Shown here: positions 6,390 through 26,740 of the stretch, in pieces
Position numbering within the stretch: position 1 is the stretch's first letter
Layout of the letters: every line of letters starts with the position of its first letter
IMG/VR virus record: IMGVR_UViG_3300044701_003360
Coordinates: 1-29,221 of that record
Source: a virus
DNA: 29,221 nt
Reading direction: 5' to 3' (one strand)
Made by a program: the position numbers and the translations under genes
Notes under the pieces: generated by a model
What the model was told of the DNA's origin: nothing
Database searches by the model: none
What the model saw: the letters and a program-made list of their open reading frames with translations, nothing else

Positions 6390-6422
6390 TGAACACCTCC
6401 TTGTTAAAGCGACCTGCATAGA

Positions 6423-6430: not shown

Positions 6431-6469
6431 CGAGTGTTAAAAAACCTAGCTCATATACCCAAATTTTTT

Positions 6470-6477: not shown

Positions 6478-6496
6478 TTGATGAGGACTTTAAACC

Positions 6497-10492: not shown

Positions 10493-10521
10493 AAAAGGCA
10501 ACTAGACAGTTGCCTTTTTTT
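10493..10521 (+). terminator. Intrinsic terminator ending the lysis/envelope operon
   Basis: A perfect 11-bp stem (AAAAGGCAACT / AGTTGCCTTTT) with a 4-base loop (AGAC), followed by a run of seven T residues from 10515. It lies 16 bases after the preceding stop. It overlaps the -35 region of the dnaJ promoter, so termination and initiation are stacked. Confidence 0.9.
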
Positions 10522-10531
10522 GTTATATAAT
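10503..10531 (+). promoter_or_regulatory. Sigma-70-type promoter of dnaJ-def-clpA
   Basis: TAGACA at 10503-10508 and TATAAT at 10526-10531 are separated by exactly 17 bases. The expected start of transcription, 6-7 bases after the -10 box, falls on the A of the dnaJ ATG (10538), so the mRNA would have no leader. No Shine-Dalgarno is present, which agrees. The -35 box lies in the loop and 3' arm of the upstream terminator. Confidence 0.72.
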
Positions 10532-10537
10532 AATGCA

Positions 10538-11383: not shown

Positions 11384-11384
11384 A

Positions 11385-11885
11385 ATGATAATTGTAAAAT
11401 ATCCGAATCCAATTTTAGATGAAGTAATGCCAAAATTTGATTTTGAAAATCCAATAATAACTCCCAAAGAATTAGAAAAAGACATGCTGTCAACGATGTT
11501 TGCCAACAATGGTATGGGACTTGCGGCTCCGCAAGTTGGCGTAAGAGCTAGAATGTTTGTAATGGGTCATGCACTTATGCCAGAAAAAAGTTTTGGAGTT
11601 TTTAATCCAGAAATATTAGATGCTAGTTCAGATCTTAGAGAATTGGAAGAGGGTTGTTTGAGTTTTCCAATAATTTATGCTAAAGTTAAAAGACCATCAT
11701 GGATAATTGCAAAATATCAAAACAGTGACGGGGAAGAACAAACTAACAGATTTGAAGGTTACGACTGTGTTTGTTTTTTACATGAATTAGACCATTTAAA
11801 TGGAATAGTATACAAAGACCGGCTAAGTACCTTAAAGTGGGCTATGGCTGTTAAAAAATCTAAAAAGGTAAATCGATATGCTTGA
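11385..11885 (+). CDS. def: Peptide deformylase
   Basis: A 166-residue metalloenzyme with all three deformylase motifs: GMGLAAPQVG (43-52), EGCLS with metal-ligand Cys91, and HELDH (133-137) with ligands His133 and His137 and catalytic Glu134. It removes the formyl group from N-terminal Met of new proteins, in the cytoplasm at the ribosome exit. Phage deformylases are known from marine T4-like phages, where faster processing of phage-encoded proteins has been proposed. It is shorter at the C terminus than most bacterial forms only slightly; a full active site is present. One base separates it from dnaJ and it overlaps clpA by eight bases. Confidence 0.96.
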   Translation: MIIVKYPNPILDEVMPKFDFENPIITPKELEKDMLSTMFANNGMGLAAPQVGVRARMFVMGHALMPEKSFGVFNPEILDASSDLRELEEGCLSFPIIYAKVKRPSWIIAKYQNSDGEEQTNRFEGYDCVCFLHELDHLNGIVYKDRLSTLKWAMAVKKSKKVNRYA

Positions 11886-14151
11886 ACCAAATGAAGAGCT
11901 GCAAGAAATTTTTGAAAAATCAATTCAACTTGCTGTAGAAAATAAACATCAATATATTACGCTAGAGCATTTTTTGTATAGCATGGTATCAAATGATCCT
12001 TTCTATAATTTGTTGAAGGACTTTGGAGCCAATATTGATGAAATTAAAAATCAGCTCAAAAATTACATAGAGCATGACTTAACTACCATTGTTGACTCTA
12101 ACGGACCAGTAAGACCAAAGAAAACAAATAGTGTGGAACGTATGCTGAATAGAGCATTTACACAAACCCTATTTGCTGGTAGAACTACCATCGAACCTAT
12201 GGATTGTTTTATTAGTATTTTACATGAAAAGAAAAGTCACGCATTATATTATCTAAGATCTAACGGTGTAGACAAAGAAAAGTTCCTAGAATATATACAA
12301 AAAGAAAATATTTCTACTTTAGAGTCTGATCAAGAAACTATTCCCGAAGGTAAATTAGAAGCTCTAATCAATAATTTCTGTGTTAATTTGAACAATAAAG
12401 TAAAACAGAAACAGATTGATCCAGTTATTGGTAGAGATAGAGAATTAGAGGAAATGCAACTAGTTTTAGCTAGAAGACACAAATCCAATGTCATGTTAAT
12501 TGGCGACCCAGGAGTAGGTAAAACTGCTCTTGCAGAAGGTTTAGCTAGAAAAATTGTAGAAGGCAAAGTTCCGAAATTTATCGAAGACTACACTGTTTAT
12601 AATTTAGACATTAGTGCATTGCTCGCAGGCAGCAAGTATCGAGGTGATTTTGAAGAAAGACTAAAAACTGTTTTAACTGCTATTCAAAAGAAAAAGAAAG
12701 CGATTCTTTTTATTGATGAAGCGCACATGATGAATGGTGCAGGTGCAAGTAGTGGTCAAAGTCAAGACATGGCTAATATGTTGAAGCCTGCATTAAGTAA
12801 GGGCGGACTAAAAGTTATTGCTAGTACTACTTGGGAAGAATTCCGTAAGCACTTTGAAAAGGATCGTGCGCTAATGCGTCGATTCCAACGTGTTACTGTT
12901 GGCGAGCCTGATGAAGAAACTTCTATTAAAATCCTAAAAGGATTAAAAAAGTATTATGAAAAGCATCATGGTTGTACTATTACCAATCAAGCTATTATTG
13001 ATGCTGTAAAATATAGTATCAAATATATGAGTGATAAAAAATTACCTGACAAAGCTATTGATATTATAGACTGTGCATGTGCTAGGTTTAAAGTTAGAGA
13101 CGAAGAAAATGGCATCGTAGATCATGACGAAGTTGTTTTTGAAGTTTCTAAAATGACAAACTTACCTTTAGAGCAAGTGGCGGCAAAAGAAACTAAAGTA
13201 TTGAAAAATTTAGAAAAAGAAATTAAAAATGAAGTTTTTGGTCAAGACTCGGCACTAGATCTTTTATTAGATAAAATTTATATTGCTCAGGCAGGTTTAA
13301 AAAGTATTAACAAACCAATTGGAAGTTTCCTTTTCGTAGGTCCCACTGGATGTGGTAAGACTGAAACTGCAAAAGTGTTAAGTCAAAAAATGGGCATACA
13401 TCTTACTAGGTTTGATATGAGTGAATTCCAAGAAAAGCATGCCGTAGCAAAATTTATTGGAGCTCCTCCGGGGTATGTTGGATTTGACGATAATGCTGGA
13501 CAATTGATTACACATCTTCAAGAAAATCCGAACTGTATTTTGCTATTAGATGAAATTGAAAAGGCGCATCCAGACGTTAGTAATGTTCTTCTACAGTTAA
13601 TGGACAATGGGTTCGTTACTGGTAGCAACGGCAAAAAGGCTGATGGTAGAAATGCTATTATCATTATGACATCTAATTTAGGTGCTGCTGATGCTGAAAG
13701 AAAGAAGATAGGATTCGGCAATAATGAAAAAACAGAAGAAATGCAAAGTGCTGTTACTAAATTCTTTGCTCCAGAATTCCGTAATAGACTAGATGGTGTG
13801 ATTTCATTTAATAAACTAGAATACAACACTATGGTAAAAATTGTAGACAAGTTTATAACTGATCTTAACTCATTAATTTCAGATAAAAATGTATTTGTAC
13901 AACTTTCGTCATCTGCTAAAGATCATTTAGTAGAAAAAGGCTTCAATGCAGCCATGGGTGCTAGACCATTGTTAAGAGTTATTGATGATAAAATTAAAAA
14001 GCCATTGAGTAAAGAAATCTTATTTGGCAACTTGATTAATGGCGGTGTTGTAAAGATAGATTTTAGTAATAATGAATTAGAATTTAATTATTTGGACCCA
14101 TTGCCTACAAGTAATAGCCAAAATTTGTTGGAGGCTCCTGTTGAAGATTGA
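11878..14151 (+). CDS. clpA: ClpA-type AAA+ unfoldase
   Basis: At 757 residues it equals E. coli ClpA (758) and lacks the middle coiled coil of ClpB. The N domain (two repeats, residues 1-145) fits the ClpS/substrate-binding domain. First AAA+ module: Walker A GDPGVGKT at 209-216, Walker B D280-E281. Second: Walker A GPTGCGKT at 488-495, Walker B D558-E559, then TPEFRNR-like FAPEFRNRLD and GARPLLRVI. AERKKIGFGNN puts I611-G612-F613 where E. coli ClpA has its ClpP-docking IGL loop. It should therefore deliver substrates to host ClpP, degrading or sparing chosen proteins. Phage ClpP is not in this window. It overlaps def, and a TTG-started gene overlaps its end. Confidence 0.94.
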   Translation: MLEPNEELQEIFEKSIQLAVENKHQYITLEHFLYSMVSNDPFYNLLKDFGANIDEIKNQLKNYIEHDLTTIVDSNGPVRPKKTNSVERMLNRAFTQTLFAGRTTIEPMDCFISILHEKKSHALYYLRSNGVDKEKFLEYIQKENISTLESDQETIPEGKLEALINNFCVNLNNKVKQKQIDPVIGRDRELEEMQLVLARRHKSNVMLIGDPGVGKTALAEGLARKIVEGKVPKFIEDYTVYNLDISALLAGSKYRGDFEERLKTVLTAIQKKKKAILFIDEAHMMNGAGASSGQSQDMANMLKPALSKGGLKVIASTTWEEFRKHFEKDRALMRRFQRVTVGEPDEETSIKILKGLKKYYEKHHGCTITNQAIIDAVKYSIKYMSDKKLPDKAIDIIDCACARFKVRDEENGIVDHDEVVFEVSKMTNLPLEQVAAKETKVLKNLEKEIKNEVFGQDSALDLLLDKIYIAQAGLKSINKPIGSFLFVGPTGCGKTETAKVLSQKMGIHLTRFDMSEFQEKHAVAKFIGAPPGYVGFDDNAGQLITHLQENPNCILLLDEIEKAHPDVSNVLLQLMDNGFVTGSNGKKADGRNAIIIMTSNLGAADAERKKIGFGNNEKTEEMQSAVTKFFAPEFRNRLDGVISFNKLEYNTMVKIVDKFITDLNSLISDKNVFVQLSSSAKDHLVEKGFNAAMGARPLLRVIDDKIKKPLSKEILFGNLINGGVVKIDFSNNELEFNYLDPLPTSNSQNLLEAPVED

Positions 14152-15251: not shown

Positions 15252-15263
15252 GATAAAAAATCA

Positions 15264-15271
15264 AATAAATA
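15264..15271 (+). promoter_or_regulatory. Late-promoter candidate ahead of the 15.3-18.9 kb genes
   Basis: AATAAATA, seven of eight matches to T4 TATAAATA, in the 86-base gap before the first gene with the shared N-terminal motif. The start site would be near 15277, giving a leader of about 60 bases. Confidence 0.5.
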
Positions 15272-15293
15272 CAATGATAGCACATTATCATTG
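15272..15293 (+). other. Hairpin in the intergenic gap
   Basis: A perfect 8-bp inverted repeat, CAATGATA / TATCATTG, with a 6-base loop (GCACAT). No T-run follows directly (GGGCC comes next; TTTT appears at 15309-15312), so termination is uncertain. A transcript starting at the adjacent late element would begin inside the left arm. Confidence 0.5.
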
Positions 15294-15337
15294 GGCCATT
15301 CAATGGGCTTTTGAGTTTACTTTTTAGGGTATCAAAT

Positions 15338-15658
15338 ATGAAACTGGTTGAATTTTTTAGTGTAAGCACCAAAGTAGAAGAAGAAATACTTGTCGACGAA
15401 GAAATGCAGAAAGAAGTTATGGCATTTATATTAGACAATGATCAAATTTACAAACAAGACCTTTTTCCTATCATTGAAAAAATGCGTAAGGGCAAAGACG
15501 TAACCAAAGATCTTTCTGAAATGGTTAAAAAATCCTGCTTAGAATTCTATAAAGAAAAAGAATTTAAGAAAGATCCAAACAAACTATTCCCTAAAAAAAT
15601 GAGGGAAAATATCATCAATAATTTGCACAAGATTGCTTCCGAGAATTATATAAAATGA
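15338..15658 (+). CDS. Small protein with capsid-targeting-like N terminus
   Basis: A 106-residue protein started at the ATG at 15338. The N terminus MKLVEFFSVSTKVEEE is the first of twelve related starts in this region (M-K-x-x-E-F-F, then acidic residues). The remaining sequence is charged and helical (MQKEVMAFILDNDQIYKQDLF, then VTKDLSEMVKKSCLEFYKEKEF) with a lysine-rich C terminus that could bind DNA. No family is recognised. It overlaps the metallopeptidase gene by four bases (ATGA). By analogy with T4 internal proteins it may be a head protein, but this rests on the N-terminal motif and context. Confidence 0.75.
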   Translation: MKLVEFFSVSTKVEEEILVDEEMQKEVMAFILDNDQIYKQDLFPIIEKMRKGKDVTKDLSEMVKKSCLEFYKEKEFKKDPNKLFPKKMRENIINNLHKIASENYIK

Positions 15659-16047
15659 AAGTAAAAGATTTATTATTAGAGTATTCCCTAGGAGACCGTC
15701 GAGAAATATTAAATGATTTCTTAAAGTATTGTGCTGATGTATTAGAAATAAATGAACTTCCAGAAATACAATTAGTGACTGATAAAAGCTATTCAGCGAA
15801 ATATAAATCATTTGGCGGTTATCAACCAGGTGAAAATAAAATAATTTTAGCTATCGAAGGTCGGCATATTGCTGACATACTCAGAACTCTAGCACACGAA
15901 CTAACCCACTACAAACAAGATTTGGAAGGTGACTTGGACGATCCTTACGCAGGGGAAACTGGTAGTGATCAAGAAAACGAAGCAAATAGTGTAGCAGGGA
16001 TATTAATGAGAGACTTTGGCAGAGCCAACCCTAATATTTACGAATAA
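15655..16047 (+). CDS. Putative zinc metallopeptidase with capsid-targeting-like N terminus
   Basis: A 130-residue protein starting MKVKDLLLEYSLGDRRE. HELTH at residues 81-85 is an HExxH zinc site in the helix IADILRTLAHELTHYKQDL; SDQENEAN (E107 or E109), about 22-25 residues later, offers the third ligand as in gluzincin/IrrE-like minimal peptidases. The length is that of a minimal catalytic domain. The N-terminal motif resembles a T4 capsid-targeting sequence, so the peptidase might be packaged and act on a host protein straight after injection, or act during head maturation. Substrate unknown. Coupled to both neighbours (ATGA overlap before, two bases after). Confidence 0.8.
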   Translation: MKVKDLLLEYSLGDRREILNDFLKYCADVLEINELPEIQLVTDKSYSAKYKSFGGYQPGENKIILAIEGRHIADILRTLAHELTHYKQDLEGDLDDPYAGETGSDQENEANSVAGILMRDFGRANPNIYE

Positions 16048-16049
16048 TT

Positions 16050-17063
16050 ATGAGAATAAGAGAATTATTAGAAGGTGGCTGGGACACCAAAGTAACACAA
16101 AGCACTGTGATAAAACCACAGATAGTAAAAGCTGCCTTATCTATAGCACAAAAATTTGCTGTTGATTTTAATTCTTTTTTAAAAGAAAAAGATATTCCCA
16201 GTATACGTATTGGCGCTCCTACAGGCAGTAGTGCTTATCATGACGTAGACCCAGAAGATAAAATTTATGGTGATGTAGATTTACAAATAGTAGTTCCTGC
16301 ATTAGAACAAAACGCGGGACTAACTATGGCACAGGTTCAGACTTTTTGGCATAAGTTAGAAGATGAATTTGTAAAAACTATCAAACCAAACTATATACAT
16401 CCAGAAAGTGAACCAGGACATCCAATTTTCTCTATAGGCAATGATCAATATGTGCAAGTAGACTTAATGCCACATCCAGTTCCATTAGAACAATGGGGAA
16501 GATATAGAGTCACTCCTGAAAGAGGACTAAAAGGTTTACTTTATGGAAATATGTTCAGTGTTTTGGGTGAACTACTACTGATGAGTATACAACACAGTGG
16601 AGCTCAAATTAAAGTTAGAGATGGGCAAAGACTCCCATACACTCCTACTAGAAAAGATTATGAACTACAAACAGTTACTTCTAATATCGAAACGTTTGTT
16701 TATGATATATTCATGCACGAAGCAAAATTGTTAGGAGTCACCAAACCATATATTGATCCATTGTTAAAAAAGCATCCTGGAGTTAACACACAAGATATTA
16801 AAATCAGTAATTTAGTTAATGCTGTTAAAGGCATAGCAAGTAGTTTTGAACTAAATGATATGTATGGTAAAGGTGCTTTGTCAAATTATGCTAATTCAAA
16901 TGACTTTATAAACAAATTTTTAGAAATATATGAAGCAAAAGCCATGAAAGATATCACTGCTAGTAAACGCGATAAAGCAGAAACTCCTGAAGCTAAGGCT
17001 CGTGCAGAAGATGATAAAAAGAAAGTTGCTCAAGGACTTGAGTTTGTTAAAGGACTATTCTAA
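16050..17063 (+). CDS. Pol beta-type nucleotidyltransferase with capsid-targeting-like N terminus
   Basis: A 337-residue protein beginning MRIRELLEGGW. IGAPTGSSAY then YGDVDLQIVV give the nucleotidyltransferase signature: GSS at 59-61, D75-x-D77, and a third acidic residue in YVQVDLMPHP. This places it in the DNA polymerase beta/CCA/2-5A synthetase-type superfamily, which transfers NMP to protein, RNA or small molecules. The helical C-terminal half ends in a charged segment. LLE followed by GG is a fit to the T4 gp21 protease consensus [LI]-x-E/[GAS]. Whether it modifies a host tRNA, protein or something else is unknown. A second DxD nucleotidyltransferase is encoded at 18161. Confidence 0.8.
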   Translation: MRIRELLEGGWDTKVTQSTVIKPQIVKAALSIAQKFAVDFNSFLKEKDIPSIRIGAPTGSSAYHDVDPEDKIYGDVDLQIVVPALEQNAGLTMAQVQTFWHKLEDEFVKTIKPNYIHPESEPGHPIFSIGNDQYVQVDLMPHPVPLEQWGRYRVTPERGLKGLLYGNMFSVLGELLLMSIQHSGAQIKVRDGQRLPYTPTRKDYELQTVTSNIETFVYDIFMHEAKLLGVTKPYIDPLLKKHPGVNTQDIKISNLVNAVKGIASSFELNDMYGKGALSNYANSNDFINKFLEIYEAKAMKDITASKRDKAETPEAKARAEDDKKKVAQGLEFVKGLF

Positions 17064-17803
17064 TGCGAGCAAGAGAATTTATGGAGCAAGCTCCTTTTAA
17101 AAATAATAAAGAAGACGAGTTAAGAAGAGCATTACAACGAGACATTGACATACCAGTGATGCCTACTGAAAAAGACTGGAGAACTGATCCAGAAGCTCGC
17201 AGAAAAAAAGAAAAAGAACAGGCATTAGAACTTCCACCTGTTAGTCCAGAGGATTTGATTGGTACTGGTATATTCAAAGCACCAGCTCTTGCCGCAGTTA
17301 ACACACTGTCAAAAACTGCTCCTAAAAAATTATCCACTAAAATTGGTGATATTGCATATGATTTAAAAAATAAACCCAATCCTTTCAATCCAATGACAAT
17401 AAAAGATGTTGGAACTGAAAAAGCAACTATACAATATCATGCTGATAATGCCTTTAGAAAAAAATATGGTATGGAGCCTCCAACATACGACATAGATAAA
17501 GATCTAAAAAGATTTGGTGGTACAGATGCATATCGCAAAGCCACCAACGATTATGCTACAATATCTAATGATTTTCAAAACAGAGGTTATAAGATTGGTG
17601 TCAGGTTTCCAGAAATTGGTGCCAATGTAGACAGCACTGATTTATTAACACCTAGAACTAGAATACCTAGTCCCAGCGCAAAAGAAAAATTTCAGGACAT
17701 TGTAGATAAAGAAGCGTTTAGAATTGCGAACCCTTTAAATATGTTAGATTTTAGCACAAAGGCTGTGGCTAATAGAAATAGGAATAACGATGAAAATAAG
17801 TGA
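17063..17803 (+). CDS. Unknown protein with capsid-targeting-like N terminus
   Basis: A 246-residue protein beginning MRAREFMEQAPFKNN. It is rich in Lys, Asp, Pro and Asn, with mostly disordered-looking segments (RRKKEKEQALELPPVSPED), one short apolar stretch (IFKAPALAAVNTLSK) and a C-terminal part with GVRFPEIGANVDSTDLL. No known domain recognised. It shares one base with the preceding stop (TAATG) and overlaps the next gene by 14 bases, so it belongs to a tight unit between the two nucleotidyltransferase genes and may be a partner or regulator of one of them; that is inferred from position only. Confidence 0.75.
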   Translation: MRAREFMEQAPFKNNKEDELRRALQRDIDIPVMPTEKDWRTDPEARRKKEKEQALELPPVSPEDLIGTGIFKAPALAAVNTLSKTAPKKLSTKIGDIAYDLKNKPNPFNPMTIKDVGTEKATIQYHADNAFRKKYGMEPPTYDIDKDLKRFGGTDAYRKATNDYATISNDFQNRGYKIGVRFPEIGANVDSTDLLTPRTRIPSPSAKEKFQDIVDKEAFRIANPLNMLDFSTKAVANRNRNNDENK

Positions 17804-18164
17804 ACTATTAGAATCTAAAGATGGCAAGGTCACCAAAAGACAACGAGAGTCTACTCGTGGTTTGCACATTTATTCAGATGGTGAAAAATGGAGCGGTGAT
17901 TATACTCAATATAGAGTTATGATGGCTGCTGCATGTACTGATGGCGAATCAGTACCAGACATGGATGCTAAAAGTTGGATAGGGAAATATAAAACAGCAC
18001 ATCCTTATTCCGAGGAAGATCAAAAAAAATTAAAAATGGCTTACAAGGCTGCAGGAGCCAGTTATAAAGATTTAAATCATGGTAATTTGGATAGTGATGA
18101 ACTAAAAAGTATTAACACGCATAGTCCTGTTGCTAAAAAGAAAAAGAATAGGTATGGCATATGA
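17790..18164 (+). CDS. Unknown small basic protein with capsid-targeting-like N terminus
   Basis: A 124-residue protein beginning MKISELLESKDGKVTKRQRE; LLE followed by S fits the gp21 cleavage pattern. After it come GLHIYSDGEKWSGDYTQYRVMMAAAC, SWIGKYKTAHPYSEEDQKK and a basic C terminus KKKKNRYGI. The tyrosine/tryptophan-rich middle looks like a folded domain; the ends look unstructured and positively charged, consistent with DNA contact inside a capsid. No family recognised. It overlaps both neighbours (14 and 4 bases) and lies directly before a nucleotidyltransferase gene. Confidence 0.75.
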   Translation: MKISELLESKDGKVTKRQRESTRGLHIYSDGEKWSGDYTQYRVMMAAACTDGESVPDMDAKSWIGKYKTAHPYSEEDQKKLKMAYKAAGASYKDLNHGNLDSDELKSINTHSPVAKKKKNRYGI

Positions 18165-18988
18165 AAATAAGAGAATTATTAGAAAGCGGTAAACGTCTAG
18201 CAGGACAAGGGATAGAAGTTTCGAGAGTCAATAAAGATGTATTTCTAAAAGCTAAATCTGTTTTAAATCCTATCTTAAAAAAAGCCGGACTTAAAGCAGG
18301 TTGGACTGCTGGCGGTGCAGGAAGTTTTGATCCTGAACATCCTTATGGTGGCGGTGGTAGAGAAGATAGCGGAGACATAGATATTATGATTGACCCTATG
18401 CAACTTTTAAAGCAGTTTCCACCAGACATCGAATCATATAACGCTGCGAGTAAAAAACCTTTAGGTCCAAAAGCCATGGCAACTACTCTAGCAGATCCTA
18501 ATAAAAAAGCTAGACTAGAACTGAGTGCTAGTAAATGGGCTTTGGCATCATATATGACTCAGAGTGGCTTTCCCACTGATCCTGGCACACTTACAGTAGA
18601 ATATTCAGATAATGGTAGAAGTTATTCTATTGATTTAATTGTTAGACCTGAAAGTTCTTGGGAACTACATTCACATGATTTTACTAGAGATCCTGGAATG
18701 AGAGGTGGACAACTATTTACAGATGTATATCCTACATTAGTCAAATTAGCCAGCAAATCTACTTTCACAGATCCTAAAACTGGCGAGGAAAAAGGTAGTT
18801 TACAATACAGTCCAGATAGGGGACTCGTAGATAGAGAAACTGACGAAGTAGTTGCTATAAACAAGAACGATATAGCTAAAATATTGCTAGGTCCAACTGC
18901 TACTGCTAAAGATATGTCAAGTATTTCGGGAATTAAAGACGCTTTAGCCAAAGATCCAGCAAAAATGCGTCAAGTCTTTCCAAATTAA
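18161..18988 (+). CDS. Second nucleotidyltransferase with capsid-targeting-like N terminus
   Basis: A 275-residue protein beginning MKIRELLESGKRLAG; its first ~25 nucleotides are nearly identical to those of the gene at 16050. WTAGGAGSFDPEHPYGGGG leads into EDSGDIDIMIDP with D72-x-D74, and YSIDLIVRP supplies a third acidic residue, a Pol beta-type nucleotidyltransferase pattern. The long Gly-rich loop between GS and the DxD pair is unusual. No obvious similarity to the other nucleotidyltransferase beyond motif and N terminus, so the two may have different targets. A late-promoter-like element follows its stop. Confidence 0.76.
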   Translation: MKIRELLESGKRLAGQGIEVSRVNKDVFLKAKSVLNPILKKAGLKAGWTAGGAGSFDPEHPYGGGGREDSGDIDIMIDPMQLLKQFPPDIESYNAASKKPLGPKAMATTLADPNKKARLELSASKWALASYMTQSGFPTDPGTLTVEYSDNGRSYSIDLIVRPESSWELHSHDFTRDPGMRGGQLFTDVYPTLVKLASKSTFTDPKTGEEKGSLQYSPDRGLVDRETDEVVAINKNDIAKILLGPTATAKDMSSISGIKDALAKDPAKMRQVFPN

Positions 18989-18993
18989 AATAC

Positions 18994-19001
18994 AATAAAT
19001 A
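18994..19001 (+). promoter_or_regulatory. Late-promoter candidate, leaderless
   Basis: AATAAATA followed by TAGCT and the ATG at 19007. Seven of eight bases match T4 TATAAATA. The expected start, about six bases on, coincides with the ATG, and no Shine-Dalgarno is present. Confidence 0.55.
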
Positions 19002-19006
19002 TAGCT

Positions 19007-20974
19007 ATGAAATTATTAGAATTCTTCAACTCCAGCAAAAAAGCTATAATGGAAGGCATTGACCATCCAGAAGACCTTATTATCTCTAATGGCAGTGCTG
19101 GCGCAGAAAGAGTTCTAAAAGACTTAATAAATTTACAGAAAGACCCCAGCACTGTTAGTGTTAAATGGGACGGATTTCCTGCTGTAGTATTTGGCAGAGA
19201 TTCAAAAGGTAATCTAGTGTTTGTAGACAAACACATGTATGACAAAATTTCTAAAGGTAAAATGAATTTTACTAGTATTAGATCATATGATGAAGAACGT
19301 GATGCTAATAGAACTAGTCTTTGGGAACAAGAAAGTGTATTAAGACCTGCATTAGATAAAGTAATTCCTAATGTTCGTGATCAATACTGGATGGGAGATC
19401 TAATGTGGACTGGAACTCCTAAAACAGATAATGGATATTTTGTTTTTAAACCAAATACTGTGGAGTATAGAGTAAAAATAGATGATACTCCTGGCAGAGG
19501 TAATACTTTAAGTGACAAAATTGCTAGAAGTGTTGGCGGTATTGCTGTACATACTTTTATACCTGGATTAGGTCAATCAGACCAACCATTAGTAGGTCTT
19601 AAAGGATTGAATGACGATGGTGGAATAACTTTCATGGTAGGAGAAATGAAAGATAAACCTAGGGTTGCAGTTAATACAGATTTAGCCAATAAAACTCAAC
19701 AAATTATTAGTCAACACAAATCATCAGTAGATAAATTTATTCAAGATCTAACAGAAATGAAATCTAAAAGTGTAATAACTGCCATGGGCCCATTTATTAC
19801 ACGTATGTTAGAAGAAGATGACATATCAGGAAACATTGTTCCGAGATTTTTAGAATTTTTAAAAGAAAGACTAACTGACTCAGCGGCGCAAAAAATGCTG
19901 GGAACTAATAAAGATGGTTGGTTGTATCAAGAAGATGGTGGCGGACCTGGACTATTAGGAATATGGTCAATGTGGGCAGCTATCACAGAACTTAAAACTA
20001 ATATTAAACAACAGATAGATGCTCAACAACAAGGTAGCGAAATAATTGCTATCACTGACGGCGTTAATGCACACGAAGGATATGTATTTGGTTCTGGAAA
20101 AGATAAACTAAAATTAATTGATAGATTAGGATTTAGTAGAGCAAATTTTGCTAAACACAAAGTCAGCGATGAAGAAGTTTCTCAAAAGAAACAAATGCCT
20201 TTAGCTGTGTTTTGTTTCGGTAGAATGAATCCACCTACATTAGGTCATGGATTAGTAATAAACAAGACTTTAGAGTCAGGTGGTGAAAACGCATTTATCT
20301 TTTTAAGTAACAGTGTTGGAACTGATGATCCGCTAGACCCATCTACTAAAGCAAAGTTTATAGCAGAAATATATCCAAATGCTGCAGGAAGAATAGTGAC
20401 TGATTTTGTTCAAGGTCCAATTTACGCTGCTAATTGGCTATATAGCAAAGGTTTTAGGAATATGGCATTTGTTGCTGGTAGTGATAGATTAGGCAAAGAA
20501 AAAGGTAGTATTGAAAAATTACTAAATGGTTGGAACAGCGGTCCTATTCGTAGCACTGATCCATCTGGCGCAAGAGATTTCGTTCACATGAGCTACATTA
20601 GTGCTGGAGATAGAGATCCAGAAAGCACAGGTATACAAGGATTTAGTGGCACTAAAGCTAGAGAGGCTGCGATTTCTGGCAATGAACAAAAGTTTCAAGA
20701 ATATACAGGTGTCGACTCTAATATTACTGTAAATGGGCTTACACTTTATCAAGCTGTTAGAAAAGCTATGAACTTAGATAAAGAAGAAGCAACTCCAGCT
20801 ACCAATGTAGTAGCAAAACAACCAGTCGCTAAAAAACAAATAGCAAAGAAGGTTCCAGGACAATCTCCCGAAACAGACAAACAAGTAGATAAATTAAATG
20901 CTTCTCTTAGAGAACAGCTTTCTGATTTACGTATAATTGTAGAAAATTTAAAACAGATTAGGAAATTAAAATGA
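19007..20974 (+). CDS. Fusion of KxDG ligase-like and TxGH adenylyltransferase-like domains
   Basis: A 655-residue protein beginning MKLLEFFNSSKKAIMEGI, another variant of the shared N terminus (IME followed by G fits gp21 cleavage). SVKWDGFPAVVFGRD gives K53-x-D-G56, motif I of ATP-dependent ligases and capping enzymes; NAHEGYVFG (E357) and KLKLID (K367/K369) fit motifs IV and V. The second domain has FCFGRMNPPTLGHG (T411-L-G-H414) and GFSGTKAREA (546-555), matching the NMN adenylyltransferase-type superfamily signatures (H/TxGH and ISGTxxR). The tail is Lys/Gln-rich with a coiled coil. Two AMP-transferring active sites in one chain suggest RNA or NAD metabolism; the actual substrate is unknown. 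Confidence 0.78.
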   Translation: MKLLEFFNSSKKAIMEGIDHPEDLIISNGSAGAERVLKDLINLQKDPSTVSVKWDGFPAVVFGRDSKGNLVFVDKHMYDKISKGKMNFTSIRSYDEERDANRTSLWEQESVLRPALDKVIPNVRDQYWMGDLMWTGTPKTDNGYFVFKPNTVEYRVKIDDTPGRGNTLSDKIARSVGGIAVHTFIPGLGQSDQPLVGLKGLNDDGGITFMVGEMKDKPRVAVNTDLANKTQQIISQHKSSVDKFIQDLTEMKSKSVITAMGPFITRMLEEDDISGNIVPRFLEFLKERLTDSAAQKMLGTNKDGWLYQEDGGGPGLLGIWSMWAAITELKTNIKQQIDAQQQGSEIIAITDGVNAHEGYVFGSGKDKLKLIDRLGFSRANFAKHKVSDEEVSQKKQMPLAVFCFGRMNPPTLGHGLVINKTLESGGENAFIFLSNSVGTDDPLDPSTKAKFIAEIYPNAAGRIVTDFVQGPIYAANWLYSKGFRNMAFVAGSDRLGKEKGSIEKLLNGWNSGPIRSTDPSGARDFVHMSYISAGDRDPESTGIQGFSGTKAREAAISGNEQKFQEYTGVDSNITVNGLTLYQAVRKAMNLDKEEATPATNVVAKQPVAKKQIAKKVPGQSPETDKQVDKLNASLREQLSDLRIIVENLKQIRKLK

Positions 20975-21495
20975 AAATCACTGAAATATTATTAGAAAAT
21001 AAAAAAGGCGTAAAAGCTCCAGTGAAACCTCGCAACTTTGTTGCCAAAAATCAACAGACTAGTGGCTCAGGTGCTCATCGTGATAAAAAGAAAGAGCAAA
21101 AGCAAGGTTACGAAAAACATAAAAGTAAAAGCGTAGCGGAAGGTTTCAATAACGAAATAGATATGGAACTACATCGTATTGCGCAATCTGAAGATGAGGA
21201 AATGTTAGTTGATGCTATGCACGGACTGTTAGGCACTGGTGTATCAGATACATTAGAAGATATGATTAATGAGTTAGCAGATGAATTAGCTGCTAAGGGA
21301 ATGACAGAACTATTAAATGATGAAGATAAAATGATAGAACTTTTAATGGATAAGGTTACAAAAGAATACGGCAATCCTGACATAGCGGAAGGTTTAAAAG
21401 ATCCAAAAGACAATCCTTGTTGGAAAGGATATAAGCCTGTAGGAACCAAAAAGAAAAATGGCAAAACTGTACCAAATTGTGTGCCTAAGGAATAA
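20971..21495 (+). CDS. Unknown protein with capsid-targeting-like N terminus and Cys-pair tail
   Basis: A 174-residue protein beginning MKITEILLENKKGVKAP. A very basic segment follows (KPRNFVAKNQQTSGSGAHRDKKKEQKQ), then an acidic helical middle with repeated ELADELAAKG-type heptads, then a C-terminal module NPCWKGYKPVG...VPNCVPKE with two cysteines about 18 apart. VAE followed by G (near residue 57) and IAE followed by G (near 138) fit the T4 gp21 cleavage consensus, so maturation at several points is possible. It overlaps the upstream gene by four bases (ATGA). The pattern suggests a head-internal or scaffold-type protein; no enzymatic motif is visible. Confidence 0.76.
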   Translation: MKITEILLENKKGVKAPVKPRNFVAKNQQTSGSGAHRDKKKEQKQGYEKHKSKSVAEGFNNEIDMELHRIAQSEDEEMLVDAMHGLLGTGVSDTLEDMINELADELAAKGMTELLNDEDKMIELLMDKVTKEYGNPDIAEGLKDPKDNPCWKGYKPVGTKKKNGKTVPNCVPKE

Positions 21496-21497
21496 AG

Positions 21498-21932
21498 ATG
21501 GAAAAATTACAACAAGCTCTAAAAATTGCATTTGCTAGTGAATTTAGTTTTTATCTAAAAGCACATTATTTTCACTGGAATGTTGAAGGCGAAAATTTTC
21601 AACAATATCATGAATTGTTTGGAAAAATTTATGAGGAAGTATATGCTAGTATTGATGATTTTGCAGAAAATATACGTAAAATAAATGCTTATACACCTGG
21701 TAGTTTAATCGGATTCAATATGCTGAGTGCTATCGAAGACGAAACTGTTATCCCGTCTGCAAAAGAAATGGTCATTGAACTATTACAGGACAGTGAGAAA
21801 ATGTCAGAGATTTTTAAATTCACTTTTAGACTTTCAGAAGAATATAACGAATATGGCCTAAGTGATTTTTTAGCCAATAGACAAGATGCACATAATAAAC
21901 ACAGCTGGATGCTAAGAGCAACATTAAAATGA
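21498..21932 (+). CDS. Dps-like ferritin
   Basis: A 144-residue four-helix protein of the Dps family. LKAHYFHWNVEG contains H26 of the HWN motif, QYHELF gives H38, and IDDFAENIR gives D53 and E57; these correspond to the inter-subunit ferroxidase ligands of Dps (E. coli H51, H63, D78, E82). The ending FLANRQDAHNKHSWMLRATLK is a typical Dps last helix. Dps forms 12-mers that oxidise iron and protect DNA. It lacks the shared N-terminal motif of its neighbours but lies in the middle of the same cassette, two bases after a motif-bearing gene. It may protect phage or host DNA during infection. Confidence 0.88.
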   Translation: MEKLQQALKIAFASEFSFYLKAHYFHWNVEGENFQQYHELFGKIYEEVYASIDDFAENIRKINAYTPGSLIGFNMLSAIEDETVIPSAKEMVIELLQDSEKMSEIFKFTFRLSEEYNEYGLSDFLANRQDAHNKHSWMLRATLK

Positions 21933-22219
21933 AACAATACAGAGTAACTAGTCAAGATATTAATCAATCCAGTGACGACGACTGTTACTTGGATCCAAAA
22001 GATCCTATACAAGAATTAAAAATACTTTCTGGTATGGGAGGAATAAACGGACAGGCAAGGTTACAAGAGTATAAACTAAGTCAGCGAGATATTAACATAA
22101 GTCATACAGCAAATAATAATGCAGAATTAATGAAACAACACGATATTAAACCTGGTACTCCAGAATGGTTTAAACTTTGGTTTAGCAAACCATATCTAAC
22201 AGGTGAGAAAAGGATTTAA
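21929..22219 (+). CDS. Small protein, unknown function
   Basis: A 96-residue protein beginning MKQYRVTSQDINQSSDDDCY, with ILSGMGGINGQARLQEYKLSQRDI in the middle and KPGTPEWFKLWFSKPYLTGEK at the end. No capsid-targeting-like start. The C-terminal KPGTPEWFKLWFSKP segment looks like a short linear module I have seen at the ends of other marine phage proteins, but cannot name. It overlaps the Dps-like gene by four bases (ATGA), so the two are co-translated. Mostly polar and likely flexible. Confidence 0.72.
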   Translation: MKQYRVTSQDINQSSDDDCYLDPKDPIQELKILSGMGGINGQARLQEYKLSQRDINISHTANNNAELMKQHDIKPGTPEWFKLWFSKPYLTGEKRI

Positions 22220-22220
22220 C

Positions 22221-22661
22221 ATGAGAGCTACTGAATTCATCACAGAAAGTTGGAGTGAAAAATATAAGAGCAGCATTAATTGCGACAGTCCTAAAGGATT
22301 TAGTCAACGTGCTCACTGTCAAGGTAGAAAAAAGAATGAAAGTTTAGAAGAAACATATGACGGTGATGAATTCTACGAAGCATACGGAGAACTTTGGTAC
22401 AATGAAGATCATCAATTAGATGAGGCGGAATATCAGGGTCGTAGTGTACCTTTAGGTAAACCTATGCGTGGTGATGTTAAAAAATTCAAAGTTTATGTTA
22501 AAAATTCAAAAGGAAACATAGTTAAGGTTAACTTTGGTGATCCTAATATGAAGATTAAAAAATCAAATCCTGCAAGACGCAGGAGTTTTAGAGCAAGACA
22601 TAATTGTGATAATCCTGGTCCCAGAGATAAAGCACGTTATTGGTCATGTAGGAAATGGTAA
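22221..22661 (+). CDS. Cys-pair protein with capsid-targeting-like N terminus
   Basis: A 146-residue basic protein beginning MRATEFITESWSEKYKSS; ITE followed by S is a possible gp21 cut. The ATG at 22221 has a good ribosome site (AAAGGA); the upstream GTG at 22203 is rejected. Two similar Cys-pair modules are visible: NCDSPKGFSQRAHCQGRKK (C-x11-C) at the start and HNCDNPGPRDKARYWSCRKW (C-x13-C) at the end, each flanked by Arg/Lys/His. They might be small zinc- or nucleic-acid-binding units. The middle is acidic then beta-like (KKFKVYVKNSKGNIVKVNFG). Function unknown. Confidence 0.76.
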   Translation: MRATEFITESWSEKYKSSINCDSPKGFSQRAHCQGRKKNESLEETYDGDEFYEAYGELWYNEDHQLDEAEYQGRSVPLGKPMRGDVKKFKVYVKNSKGNIVKVNFGDPNMKIKKSNPARRRSFRARHNCDNPGPRDKARYWSCRKW

Positions 22662-22662
22662 T

Positions 22663-23436
22663 ATGAAGATTACTGAGTTACTTGCTGAAAATAAAGACAC
22701 TAAAGCTGACACTGTTCAAAAAAATAGTGACGAACTTGCTACAATCCAAAGTAATGTTCACGGAACTGAAAGTGGGTATGGGAAAGCAAAAACTGACAAA
22801 CCTAATTATGCAGGTGCTATAGGCCCAATGCAAATTCTTCCATCAACATTTGGTTGGATGCAAAAAACTGGTATAATACCAAAAGATTATGATATACAAA
22901 ATCCAGAACAAAACAAGGCTGCAGGTGATGCACTATTAGCTCATTATTATAAAAAATATGATGGCGATCCTTCCAAAGTATATGCAGCATATTATGGAGG
23001 CCCTGGCGCAGTTAATAAAGACGGCACTATTAATACACACTGGCGAGACAGAAAAAATCCTAAAGCACCTACAGTAGGAGAATATATTGCAATAGCTATG
23101 GCAAAGAGTGGAACTTCACAACCTAGAAGCAGAGACGGAAAAACTGATGTTTCACTACCGAAATCTGTCGCAGTTGCTTCTGCTCCAACAGCAAAATCTG
23201 TTTTAGATACTGATAACGTGTCAAGAACTATTTCTGATATAGGTTCTTCTATTGGAAATTTCTATGACAGAGTCAGATCCGATTTAACAAGAAACATTAG
23301 TTCTACAGATAATATAGAGAATAATGAAATAGTATTGCTCATAGGTGGCAAGAAAAGAAAATTTAAAAACAAGAAAGAGGCGGAGATGGCAATAAAATTA
23401 GCAATGCAATCAGGAGAGGAGATTGTTAATGTCTAA
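22663..23436 (+). CDS. Lytic transglycosylase (SLT-type) with capsid-targeting-like N terminus
   Basis: A 257-residue protein beginning MKITELLAENKDTKA at the ATG at 22663. The catalytic Glu is E36 in HGTESGYGKAK; GAIGPMQILPSTFGWM and KVYAAYYGGPGAV are the other SLT (goose-lysozyme-like) blocks. It would cleave peptidoglycan between MurNAc and GlcNAc. There is no signal peptide, and a separate GH19 endolysin exists, so its use in ordinary lysis is unlikely. The N-terminal motif suggests that it travels in the head and helps DNA cross the wall, as virion transglycosylases of other phages do. The C-terminal part carries a basic KKRKFKNKKEAEMAI segment. Confidence 0.85.
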   Translation: MKITELLAENKDTKADTVQKNSDELATIQSNVHGTESGYGKAKTDKPNYAGAIGPMQILPSTFGWMQKTGIIPKDYDIQNPEQNKAAGDALLAHYYKKYDGDPSKVYAAYYGGPGAVNKDGTINTHWRDRKNPKAPTVGEYIAIAMAKSGTSQPRSRDGKTDVSLPKSVAVASAPTAKSVLDTDNVSRTISDIGSSIGNFYDRVRSDLTRNISSTDNIENNEIVLLIGGKKRKFKNKKEAEMAIKLAMQSGEEIVNV

Positions 23437-24202
23437 ACCAGAAGTTTATTTAGATATGGATGGAGTTATCGCAGACTTCTTTGCCGAGTATGCTAAACTT
23501 GCAGGAGTCACTTCCGGTGATTACAGATCTATACCTCCAGCCAAAGTAGATCCTACTTTAGATAAAATGATAGGTACTGATTTCTTTTTTAGATTACCCA
23601 AATTTCCCAGTGCTGATGCATTAGTAGATATGATTGTAAAAACTTTTGGTCATTATCATATATGCTCAAGTCCATTAAGGGGAGACCATGCTGGGAGTGA
23701 GAAATGGAAAAAGGCATGGATTAAAAAATATTTAAAAATACAGCCTAAAGAAATAATAATTACACCCAATAAAGCCAAATATGCAGTACAAGCAGACGGT
23801 ACTCCAAATATTTTAATTGATGATAGAGGTAGTAACATCAGTGCATGGGAAGCTAAAGGTGGTGTTGGTATTAAGTATCAAGCAGATGAGGATGGTCTCG
23901 ACGTTGTTCTAAAAGGATTTAAGCGAGCTATAGAAATAGTTAAAGGTCAACAAAAACACGAACCACAAAAACTACAAAGTTTAGACAGAGGGAAAATGAT
24001 CGCTGTACAACAAAGTGGTGATAAAGACATTGAAGAAAATTTTGCTGATGGAAAAAATCCTGGACGCAAAGGTCTGGCTAAACGTATGGGTGTTAATACT
24101 AAAGCCAGTGTTAGCAGTCTTCGTAAGACTGCCAAAAATTCATCAGGTGAAAAGCAACGCATGGCACATTGGTTGGCCAATATGAAAGGCGGAAAAAAAT
24201 AA
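23429..24202 (+). CDS. HAD-type 5'-nucleotidase with C-terminal GRKG module
   Basis: A 257-residue protein from the ATG at 23429 (GGAG ahead); it overlaps the transglycosylase gene by eight bases. VYLDMDGVIADF gives the HAD nucleophile D9 and acid D11, CSSPLRGD is motif II, and KAKYAVQ...NILIDDRGSN gives motifs III/IV (DD), the 5'(3')-deoxyribonucleotidase arrangement. It would dephosphorylate nucleoside monophosphates. After residue ~200 follows a separate basic module, NPGRKGLAKRMGVNTKASVSSLRK ending KQRMAHWLANMK, which I recall as a stand-alone or appended domain in other marine phage proteins. No capsid-targeting-like start. Confidence 0.82.
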   Translation: MSKPEVYLDMDGVIADFFAEYAKLAGVTSGDYRSIPPAKVDPTLDKMIGTDFFFRLPKFPSADALVDMIVKTFGHYHICSSPLRGDHAGSEKWKKAWIKKYLKIQPKEIIITPNKAKYAVQADGTPNILIDDRGSNISAWEAKGGVGIKYQADEDGLDVVLKGFKRAIEIVKGQQKHEPQKLQSLDRGKMIAVQQSGDKDIEENFADGKNPGRKGLAKRMGVNTKASVSSLRKTAKNSSGEKQRMAHWLANMKGGKK

Positions 24203-24570
24203 TGAAAATATTTGAATTACTTAATGAAAATGATGTTGTAGATCCAGACAGAGATTCTGTAGAAAAAAGATTAGATGATTTGGTAAAAAGAGAAAAAGAG
24301 ATTGATGCTTTATTAAAAGACATAACCCCAGGTTTCAATCCAATATCTCCAGATGAAGGTGACGATCAATTGGTTGGATATACTACTCCAAGAAAATCTC
24401 GTGAAATATTGAAAAATCCTGAGTTGTATCAATATGGAACGACTATAGAGAAAGAGAAAGATTTTCAACGTCCGGTGTTTAACAAAAATACTAAACCACC
24501 AGATAATTGGAAGAAAAAAGGAATGCCATTACCTAATGATGAATATCCGACAAAAAATATAGACATCTAA
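24202..24570 (+). CDS. Small protein with capsid-targeting-like N terminus
   Basis: A 122-residue protein from the ATG at 24202, sharing a base with the preceding stop (TAATG). It begins MKIFELLNENDVVDPDRD, then a charged helix (KRLDDLVKREKEIDALLKDI) and a Pro-rich, polar C-terminal half (GFNPISPDEGDDQ, TTPRKSREILKNPELYQYG, KPPDNWKKKGMPLPNDEYP). No catalytic motif or known domain. Highly charged and probably extended. A late-type promoter candidate lies at its stop codon. Confidence 0.74.
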   Translation: MKIFELLNENDVVDPDRDSVEKRLDDLVKREKEIDALLKDITPGFNPISPDEGDDQLVGYTTPRKSREILKNPELYQYGTTIEKEKDFQRPVFNKNTKPPDNWKKKGMPLPNDEYPTKNIDI

Positions 24571-24577
24571 TTAAATA
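24570..24577 (+). promoter_or_regulatory. Late-promoter candidate
   Basis: ATTAAATA followed by ACTTGATAAAGAG in the 27-base gap before the ATG at 24598; six of eight matches to the T4 late element. Weaker than its relatives because AAC replaces the usual TA after the core. Confidence 0.35.
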
Positions 24578-24597
24578 ACTTGATAAAGAGATATAAA

Positions 24598-25341
24598 ATG
24601 AAAATTAATGAACTTTTAGAAAACATTTTAAATGAAGATGAAATTCGTGATGCAGAGTTGCTTAAAATGGGTGACACTTCACTGACCGCAGGCGATGTTG
24701 CAGATGCACTGAGTATTGAACCGTCGACTGCTTTAAAATACGGAAAAGATATTGTTAATTTTTTAAGTTCAGAAATTAGACCTGGTTACACTACTGGCGA
24801 AGCTGCATTAGATGTTGCTACAGTTATTCCGTTACTACGTGCTTCCAAATGGGTTATTGGTCCAATTTTAGCTAGAAAAGAATTACAAGCAACTACCAAG
24901 AAACAAGTTGGTAAAGAGATTCAAAAAGGCGCAACAAGACAGACTGGTAAAGAAATAGTCACACGCAATGTAAGTAAAGGGTCTGCATTTAATACGCCAT
25001 CAGACAAAAGTTCATCTGATACTGCTCAACCTAAAAAACGAAGATATTCAATTGGTGATATGATTAATGTCAATTATCAAGGAATGACTATTAAAGGAGT
25101 GGTTAAAAATGTAATTCCAGGGGGATATTCAATAGGATTACCAGATGGGAAAACTGTTAGTATTCCGGAACCAATAATGGAATCTCCTACACAAGGATCA
25201 ACATCTGCAGCCGACGTCACTGTTGGGGCAGTTTATCCTAATAAAAAAGTAAAAAATTCTAAAAATAAAGATGGCACCGTTAAAAACGCATTAGATATGG
25301 ATGCCAATTTACTTACTGGCGGCAGTTTAGTAAAACGATAA
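24598..25341 (+). CDS. Unknown protein with capsid-targeting-like N terminus
   Basis: A 247-residue protein from the ATG at 24598, beginning MKINELLENILNEDEIRD. Early segments LTAGDVADALSIEPSTALKYG suggest a helical, possibly helix-turn-helix-like stretch; TGEAALDVATVIPLLRASKWVIGPIL is moderately apolar. A basic linker (KKQVGKEIQKGATRQTGKE) follows, then a small beta-barrel-like domain KRRYSIGDMINVNYQGMTIKG with GGYSIGLPDGKTVSI, similar in outline to SH3/KOW-like folds. No enzyme motif. Last of the motif-bearing genes; its stop codon lies in a late-promoter element. Confidence 0.75.
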   Translation: MKINELLENILNEDEIRDAELLKMGDTSLTAGDVADALSIEPSTALKYGKDIVNFLSSEIRPGYTTGEAALDVATVIPLLRASKWVIGPILARKELQATTKKQVGKEIQKGATRQTGKEIVTRNVSKGSAFNTPSDKSSSDTAQPKKRRYSIGDMINVNYQGMTIKGVVKNVIPGGYSIGLPDGKTVSIPEPIMESPTQGSTSAADVTVGAVYPNKKVKNSKNKDGTVKNALDMDANLLTGGSLVKR

Positions 25342-25344
25342 ATA
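25337..25344 (+). promoter_or_regulatory. Late-promoter candidate
   Basis: GATAAATATTG, seven of eight matches to T4 TATAAATA, overlapping the stop codon of the preceding gene. The predicted transcript start near 25350 leaves a short leader with AAAGGA before the ATG at 25367. Confidence 0.55.
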
Positions 25345-25366: not shown

Positions 25367-26740
25367 ATGCCATCAAAAAGTCGAGCTCAACAAGGTCTTA
25401 TAGGAGCAGTATACGCTGCTAAAAAAGGAGGGCCAGCAGCTAGTCCTAAAGTTGCAAAAATAGCAAAAGGAATGAGCCAAAAATCTGCTAAAGATTTTGC
25501 CAGTACTAAACACAAAGGCCTGCCTAAAAAAATCAAAGAAGATCTACGTCAAAGAGCTGCTGCTGCTTTTGATGAATTAGATAATGAAATAGCACTATCT
25601 AGACGTCCACAGTCAGTAAAAGATGCAGAAGCTGCGGCTGCACGGGATGCTGCTCCATTACGTTCAGACCCAAATAGTCTTAACAGTTATGATAAGAACA
25701 TATTAAGGAGTGTTGATAAAGATCCTGACAACGCTACCTACACGGTTAATGGCAGAGTAATGAATAAAGCACAGTACCAAAAGTTTCAACAGGATTACGG
25801 TAATCAACAACAGGACCCAAGAGAAATGGAGCTAGATAGACAAATGAATGATTTTAAATTTAGAAATAAAGTGAAAGAAGGCGGCAAAGAAGGGGACAAG
25901 TACAAAGTAAAATCTGGCTCAAATAAAGACAAGCGTTGGAGTCCGGACACACCTGGTCCAACTAATCCTAATTATAAAGAAATTGATGGAAATATTCCCA
26001 GCCCGCCAGATGGAGCCACTGCACCTCCCCCAGGTTGGAAACCAGAAAAATCTAAGAGTGCTCCTGCCACAAGAAGTAATAAACGTGCTGATGCTGGAGA
26101 CTTTGAACTAGATGACGAAGCCGTGGCTGAAAGTAAGAAGCGTAAAAAAGATTTAACTGGTGACGGTAAACATAATTTTGATGATGTTCAAACCGCACGT
26201 AGAATGGCTAGTGGGCAGGATAAAAAGACTGCTGTAAAAGCCGCTACCTCAGACAAGTTAAAAGAAGAAACATACACAATAAATGGTAAAGAAGTTTCTA
26301 AAGCAGCATATGAAAAAGAAATGGCCAAAGCCAAAAAATCTAAAGACAAAAAATCTAAAGACAAAATAAAAGAAGCATTGCAACTAGTACGACAGGCAAA
26401 AAGTTTAATTGCTGAATCTAAAAAAGAAGAACTAGCAGCTAGACTATTCGAGTCACATGATGAAATGCATGATCATGGTGAGTATGATGATGAAGCTGGA
26501 ATGGCCGACAATAATCTGGAAACTTTGAAACGTGCAGTAATGGGGATTGATGACGAAATTGGTCCTGGAGATAATTTACCAGAATGGTGCCAAGAAAAAA
26601 TCGCTGTTGCAACAGATATGTTGATTACTGTTTGGGATTATATGCAAAGCGAAAAAAATTCAGAGCAAGAAATGGAAATACCAACTGATGATCAATATAT
26701 GCTGATGTTAAAAGAACGATTAGAACAATTTAAAAAGTAA
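25367..26740 (+). CDS. Long lysine-rich protein with DUF3008-like N terminus and dockerin-like loop
   Basis: A 457-residue, very charged protein. The first ~55 residues (MPSKSRAQQGLIGAVYAAKKG, SPKVAKIAKGMSQKSAKDFAS, TKHKGLPKKI) resemble the small DUF3008-type proteins of bacteria and phages. The middle is Pro/Asp/Lys-rich and looks disordered. Residues 262-273, DLTGDGKHNFDD, form a dockerin/EF-hand-like calcium loop followed by a helix (VQTARRMASG). Two YTVNGRVMNKAQYQK / YTINGKEVSKAAYEK segments near 125 and 304 look like internal repeats. The C terminus is helical and acidic. Function unknown; the modules could connect head or DNA components. Confidence 0.78.
   Translation: MPSKSRAQQGLIGAVYAAKKGGPAASPKVAKIAKGMSQKSAKDFASTKHKGLPKKIKEDLRQRAAAAFDELDNEIALSRRPQSVKDAEAAAARDAAPLRSDPNSLNSYDKNILRSVDKDPDNATYTVNGRVMNKAQYQKFQQDYGNQQQDPREMELDRQMNDFKFRNKVKEGGKEGDKYKVKSGSNKDKRWSPDTPGPTNPNYKEIDGNIPSPPDGATAPPPGWKPEKSKSAPATRSNKRADAGDFELDDEAVAESKKRKKDLTGDGKHNFDDVQTARRMASGQDKKTAVKAATSDKLKEETYTINGKEVSKAAYEKEMAKAKKSKDKKSKDKIKEALQLVRQAKSLIAESKKEELAARLFESHDEMHDHGEYDDEAGMADNNLETLKRAVMGIDDEIGPGDNLPEWCQEKIAVATDMLITVWDYMQSEKNSEQEMEIPTDDQYMLMLKERLEQFKK

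Follow-up and report, generated by a model that had tools for sequence, protein, structure and literature searches.

A cluster of twelve phage genes shares a short N-terminal leader resembling the capsid-targeting propeptides of T4

Genes of the cluster and their shared N-terminus

The window analyzed here is the entire record of an uncultivated virus, 29,221 bases long. It carries T4-type genes for a clamp loader, a PhoH-like protein and a DNA polymerase, and head genes are absent from this 29 kb fragment. Comparison at the DNA level found no close named relative of the window, and a PADLOC search found no defence families. Twelve of the 50 called genes, all within 15338-25341, begin with variants of one leader, and they are listed below with their neighbors (numbers are window positions; a slash marks the putative cut). 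Genes for DnaJ-like proteins also lie upstream of the cluster.

11878..14151: ClpA-type ATPase, just upstream of the cluster (TIGR02639, E=6e-263)
15264..15271, + strand: late-promoter-like motif AATAAATA, 74 nt upstream of 15338, where the leader genes begin
15338..15658, + strand: leader protein MKLVEFF..., 106 aa
15655..16047, + strand: leader MKVKDLLLE/, putative zinc metallopeptidase (HELTH; phrog_87 metallo-protease, E=1.9e-4)
16050..17063, + strand: leader MRIRELLE/GGWDT, Pol-beta-superfamily nucleotidyltransferase fold (predicted fold, Foldseek)
17063..17803, + strand: leader MRAREFME/, 246 aa
17790..18164, + strand: leader MKISELLE/, 124 aa
18161..18988, + strand: leader MKIRELLE/SGKRLA, Pol-beta-superfamily nucleotidyltransferase fold (predicted fold, Foldseek)
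18994..19001, + strand: late-promoter-like motif AATAAATA, before 19007
19007..20974, + strand: leader MKLLEFFNSSKKAIME/GIDHPED, DUF6267 fused to NMNAT/cytidylyltransferase (PF19782, E=5e-35; phrog_3041/395 cytidyltransferase)
20971..21495, + strand: leader MKITEILLE/, basic protein with the tail CWKGYK...PNCVP
21498: Dps-like gene without leader, between leader genes
21929: gene without leader, between leader genes
22221..22661, + strand: leader MRATEFITE/S, protein with a CDSPKGFSQRAHCQGRKK module (phrog_7595)
22663..23436, + strand: leader MKITELLAE/, SLT lytic transglycosylase (PF01464, E=1.5e-16; phrog_342)
23429: gene without leader, between leader genes
24202..24570, + strand: leader MKIFELLNE/, 122 aa
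24598..25341, + strand: leader MKINELLE/, second site PIME/S
25337..25344, + strand: late-promoter-like motif, before the leaderless gene 25367
25367..26740, + strand: leaderless DUF3008-type protein (PF11450, E=6e-5)

The twelve gene starts and N-termini given by the first-pass annotation were all confirmed, in coordinates and in sequence. Its description of a dozen genes in a row holds for the number, but the series is interrupted by the leaderless genes 21498, 21929 and 23429. The leaders comprise 8-9 residues (16 in 19007) and always occupy the extreme N-terminus, and the bodies that follow them are mutually unrelated.

To quantify the likeness, we applied the strict regular expression M[KR]xx[ED][LFIMV][LFIMV] to the 50 called genes, and it picked exactly the 12 leader genes. 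When residues 2-30 were shuffled within each gene, the mean number of matches was 0.10 and the maximum 2 (2000 rounds), while none of the 232 internal methionines matched. An equal frequency of the motif in random genes had been named beforehand as counting against the reading, and these counts do not show it. The codons differ at the conserved positions (AAA, AAG, AGA or CGA; TTA, CTA or CTT; GAA or GAG), which indicates that the likeness lies at the protein level, with selection acting on the protein sequence, and is not a repeated DNA element; a DNA-level repeat as its cause was rejected on account of this codon diversity.

Conservation of the predicted cleavage junction

The first-pass annotation proposed that several of the motifs end as sites of gp21, the prohead protease of T4. 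In three families (18161, 16050 and 19007), the leaders of orthologues differ in sequence and length and the junction [LI]xE followed by G, A or S is kept. Leader-bearing members of all three have E directly before the body and nearly always a hydrophobic residue at P3. Leaders of the 18161 family have mostly 8, 9 or 16 residues, followed by E/[SA]GKRLA, and the 16050 family has the junction E/GGWD. In the 19007 family, leaders of 16-24 residues mostly end in [IL]xE/GI, the site of 19007 itself being placed differently, at residues 14-16 (IME/G); a distant homologue of the type found in the relative G005 (see below) reads LLE/AGTAH, offset by one residue. The proposal thus stands as an invariant junction in these three families, but the leader of 15338 has no conserved [LI]xE cut site.

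One orthologue of 18161 lacks the leader altogether (L028): it begins M/AGKRLSS, exactly at the predicted cut, with an in-frame stop just upstream. Among 111 distinct leaders, the P1' residue after the first site is mostly G, A or S. All ten distinct N-termini of the homologues of 15655 fit the motif expression, and those of 17790 carry the motif in 10 of 10 cases. In the AlphaFold models of 16050 (pLDDT 88) and 18161 (pLDDT 87), the leader is the sole segment with a pLDDT under 50, corresponding to residues 1-11 and 1-9, respectively.

Relatives and late-promoter motifs

We found close relatives of the window in IMG/VR, on the contigs G003 (245 kb), G004 (~215 kb) and G005 (266 kb). All three encode a peptidase S77, the family of the T4 prohead protease gp21; the window fragment stops short of the head genes. 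The strict expression finds 8, 8 and 6 leader genes in G003, G004 and G005, respectively, for 0.3-0.4 after shuffling. These genes are arranged as the same cluster in G003 and G004 and are dispersed in G005, where the orthologues retain their leaders. Hence, the initial observation that no gene outside the region has the motif is correct inside the 29 kb fragment, but does not extend to the relatives, given the leader gene at 51461 in G004 and the dispersed ones in G005. The G005 gene adjoining the portal starts with MHLRDLMEN. Judging from its likeness to T4 gp23, the capsid protein of the relatives would have the same kind of cut site (RYLAE/S).

The sequence ATAAATA is the core of T4-type late promoters. 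It occurs 3 times in the window, for 18 expected, and all 3 sites lie before cluster genes (15338, 19007 and 25367). The late-promoter-like motifs are kept at orthologous places in G003 and G004, and G003 also has this motif before the gene adjoining the portal. This suggests, from the sequence, that the cluster is expressed late, along with the head genes.

Predicted functions of the proteins behind the leaders

The bodies had been said to include enzymes, and the predictions agree with this: two nucleotidyltransferases, the DUF6267-NMNAT protein, a putative metallopeptidase and the SLT transglycosylase. The last matches phrog_342, an internal virion protein with an endolysin domain. The family searches of the window proteins gave no match for 17063.

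Neither 16050 nor 18161 has a significant match in Pfam or NCBIfam, and searching the PDB by sequence returned nothing for 18161 and a single insignificant match for 16050 (E=0.36). Foldseek matched the model of 16050 to pol beta (E=6.5e-4) and CdnD (1.3e-3), and that of 18161 to pol lambda (E=1e-4, prob 1.0), with low TM-scores for both proteins (0.31-0.43). A G-S, a D-x-D and a third D are invariant in both families; the alignment of 16050 has invariant E8-G-G-W-D, G59, S60, D75, D77 and D138. The models thus make these two proteins likely members of the Pol-beta nucleotidyltransferase superfamily. The DUF6267 part of 19007 has KWDG, EG and K-L motifs, of which KWDG and EG are suggestive of a ligase-type nucleotidyltransferase; the DUF6267-NMNAT protein had no match in the PDB by sequence.

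The end of 24598 resembles the region that follows the cut in the capsid protein (SPTQGSTSAADV versus SATAGSTSAGNV), and the site PIME/S precedes this likeness. Small relatives of 24598 share the likeness to the N-arm of the mature capsid protein. The leaderless protein 25367 resembles gp93 of the cyanophage S-SCSM1, a DUF3008-type protein annotated as a virion protein.

A rule derived from T4 and the virion proteomes of cyanophages

In T4, gp21 cleaves short peptides off the N-termini of IPI, IPII, IPIII, Alt and gp24 (PMC9958956). The propeptides of the internal proteins have 10-19 residues; in IPIII, targeting is sensitive to residues 4 and 7, and processing to residues 8 and 10 (PMC9026906). 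The T4-type spacing, in which E comes 5-6 residues past the first hydrophobic residue, is found in 10 of the 12 window leaders, of which 5 have the exact IPIII spacing in register i=3. With E allowed at i+5 or i+6, 10 window genes fit for 0.58 expected. No window gene fits in T4's own register, i=4, and the spacing agrees only when shifted by one residue.

The proposed motif search of other T4-like genomes was successful in part: it recovered the leader cluster in G003 and G004, but the strict expression found nothing in S-CREM2, S-SZBM1 or HTVC008M, and broader expressions were also tried. We therefore chose as an a priori test the rule ^M..H..hh.E, written solely from the mutagenesis of T4 IPIII and not fitted to the window. 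Among the 315 called genes of T4, it picks 5: IPII, IPIII, gp24, Alt and the unstudied 61.1. In S-CREM2, it picks 6 of 219 proteins, and 5 of these 6 were detected by mass spectrometry in virions according to the published proteome table (PMC10665884), namely the SAM hydrolase, the kinase, the cytidylyltransferase, gp13 and gp136. Fisher's test gives p=0.0032 when all proteins are counted and p=2.4e-4 when those annotated as structural are left aside. The rule does less well elsewhere: 1 of 4 matches was detected in virions in each of S-SZBM1 and S-SCSM1, and the pelagiphage HTVC008M shows no excess of rule matches. In the protein of S-CREM2 annotated as 'Cas9', the motif lies 16 residues in, not at the annotated start. 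Many proteins detected in virions are leaderless.

Homologues of the NMNAT/cytidylyltransferase of 19007 were found in the virions of S-CREM2, S-SZBM1 and S-SCSM1 (PMC10665884, PMC9146016, PMC9602691), and they have leaders of their own: MKNFSSFLTE/A, MRFRQFIIE/A and MKSFLQFLKE/A, respectively. Around the NMNAT gene of S-SCSM1, the annotation assigns the products of genes 89-93, 95 and 97 to the virion. S-SZBM1 encodes the DUF6267 half on its own, in gene 141, whose product begins at the position corresponding to the mature end; gp139 had been considered as the DUF6267 homologue and was rejected in favor of gp141. In the S-SZBM1 mass spectrometry list, the leader-bearing cytidylyltransferase is present and gp141 is absent, a single case. 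The authors of the S-CREM2 study state that carry-over in the CsCl purification cannot be excluded (PMC10665884).

Discussion

We propose, with a probability of about 85%, that the leader is a capsid-targeting propeptide of the T4 type, carried by late-expressed cargo that is cut by a gp21-type protease and leaves with the DNA. The initial suggestion that these proteins are packed into the head has gained from the invariance of the junction, the leaderless orthologue, the gp21-type protease of the relatives, the late promoters, the T4 rule and the virion proteomes with NMNAT homologues. Packaging of the cluster proteins is thus well supported, in part through homologues in virions, and the locus is best read as holding at least 11-12 leader proteins as cargo. 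For these exact proteins, we infer packaging and cleavage, injection, and host targets in nucleotide transfer, NAD, the cell wall and proteolysis. Ejection and action on the host would follow by analogy with T4 IPI and Alt. In other words, the virion of this phage probably contains a set of enzymes that reach the host together with the DNA.

The proposed sequence of events relies, in its early steps, on evidence from the window and its relatives together with knowledge of T4. The leader proteins would be synthesized late, during prohead assembly. The leader would form a short amphipathic helix, with hydrophobic residues at i, i+3 and i+4, that docks the protein on the scaffold core. A gp21-type protease would then cut after [LI]-x-E, freeing the mature protein within the head, where it would be retained with the DNA and ejected into the next host at infection.

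One might instead consider that the leader does target the prohead core, but that the proteins are scaffold or assembly factors, which stay or leave without being injected as effectors. T4 IPIII affects head assembly (PMC9026906), several of the bodies are small and basic, and 24598 and its small relatives have the likeness to the capsid-protein N-arm. However, roles after injection would better suit an SLT transglycosylase and enzyme folds whose catalytic residues (GS, DxD, D) are all present, and we regard this alternative as improbable. Much less credible is that the leader governs protein turnover, marking its carriers for the phage ClpA-like ATPase (11878-14151) as a degron or adaptor tag. 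The genes for this ATPase and for the DnaJ-like proteins do lie upstream of the cluster, yet such a tag leaves unexplained the invariant junction between [LI]xE and body, the match to the leaders of the T4 internal proteins, gp24 and Alt, and the leader-bearing homologues in virions. Least plausible is that the likeness comes from a recent duplication of start regions, or from an element at gene starts that acts in translation or at the DNA level: the genes are tightly packed with overlapping starts, but codons differ at the conserved positions, and distant families as well as the scattered G005 genes retain the protein motif.

The propeptide reading invites comparison with known systems. Like the window proteins, T4 IPI, IPII, IPIII and Alt have an N-terminal leader (of ~10 aa) with hydrophobic residues at i, i+3 and i+4, an [LI]xE cut and unrelated bodies, and the T4 gp24 leader, MAKINELLRE/S, nearly equals MKINELLE of the window. 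Unlike those of T4, the window leaders are rich in Leu and mostly shorter by one residue; a single locus gathers a dozen cargos, and the predicted cargo has Pol-beta-fold nucleotidyltransferases, a DUF6267-NMNAT, a metallopeptidase and a transglycosylase. The virion enzymes of S-CREM2, S-SZBM1 and S-SCSM1 (NMNAT, SAM hydrolase, APH/ChoK kinase) include the homologous NMNAT and have T4-type N-terminal leaders, with fewer leader proteins per phage than in the window; the accessible parts of the papers call them virion-associated without mentioning a targeting signal. In P1, the N-terminal 30 residues of DarB send cargo to the capsid, and anti-restriction Dar proteins are carried (PMC9024508); here, the comparison with the window leaders is one of function, and the scaffold system differs. 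The ejection proteins of SPN3US and phiKZ-type phages, of another phage lineage, are likewise comparable by function, since many are packaged and ejected and some are cut by a prohead protease.

Capsid-targeting sequences are thus already known in T4 and, functionally, in P1. Our search of the open-access literature found no paper on capsid targeting in cyanophages or on a link between leaders and virion enzymes; within that literature, what is new is how many and which proteins the array comprises, that its leader is shorter, and that leaders are linked to cyanophage virion enzymes.

We lean slightly towards a broader view, in which T4-superfamily phages generally load sets of enzymes by means of a packaging code at the N-terminus, spelled differently from lineage to lineage. 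Such enzymes, among them Pol-beta-type nucleotidyltransferases, NAD-synthesis enzymes, peptidases, kinases and SAM hydrolases, would affect the host from time zero. If this is true, one could predict from sequence alone which proteins a phage of this kind injects. Scattered cyanophage virion enzymes, which the S-CREM2 authors could not tell from contamination, would come under a testable rule, the presence of a cleavable leader. The leaders also suggest new targeting tags with which proteins may be loaded into phage heads. Finally, they single out a large number of proteins of uncultivated aquatic phages as candidate time-zero effectors, two conserved families of predicted nucleotidyltransferases among them.

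T4 61.1 and other proteins with leader-like N-termini

T4 61.1 opens with MKTFKEFIKE, a leader of the capsid-targeting-like kind, and the segment after it, NISIGTTSGAV, resembles NIAAGQTSGAV, the region following the cut of the capsid protein gp23. This capsid-arm likeness was found in:

NC_000866 18966-19130, T4 gene 61.1, with leader
G003 (window-phage relative) 118340-118576, with leader, similar to T4 61.1
G005 (window-phage relative) 84670-84876, with leader, similar to T4 61.1
Window, C-terminus of leader gene 24598

Homologues of 61.1 occur in 1387 phage records, and among the matches listed the majority are named hypothetical.

A small conserved family in two cyanophages has perfect T4-type leaders (MKTFKQFMSESVNI, MKSFKSFLSESVNI):

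S-SCSM1 44215-44535
S-SZBM1 122311-122628

It was detected in neither virion proteome, and is perhaps a core protein degraded during maturation.

In Flavobacterium phage immuto 2-6A (L101), unrelated proteins share the N-termini (M)xNFDLKKFLVENKLTxNSxLLKE and MKKSQLRxIIKE, which from their sequences look like additional leader spellings; an NMNAT gene lies nearby.

Set 1: 5807-6355, 19632-20633, 20633-20932
Set 2: 4295-4870, 4881-5360, 15189-15947

Modules and gene context

The short basic modules CWKGYK..PNCVP, CDSPKGFSQRAHCQGRKK and SLRKTAKNSSGEKQRMAHWLANMK, repeated among different proteins of the cluster and of relatives, are possibly DNA-binding tails. Window genes carrying such modules are:

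20971-21495, leader gene
22221-22661, leader gene
23429-24202, leaderless
25367-26740, leaderless

Directly upstream of the cluster (10520-14151) lie DnaJ-like, peptide deformylase and ClpA-like ATPase genes. Across the whole window, ATAAATA is depleted about six-fold (3 observed versus 18 expected), a pattern that looks like avoidance of late-promoter motifs at other positions.

Leader genes are also present on a T4-like phage contig, L085 (G002), together with:

5742-7553, 5184-5483, 4243-4647, PQQ dehydrogenase and c-type cytochrome genes

The dehydrogenase is of the methanol/ethanol type (TIGR03075, E=2e-210) and one cytochrome is related to methanol metabolism. Carriage of these genes suggests that the host of this phage is a methylotroph.
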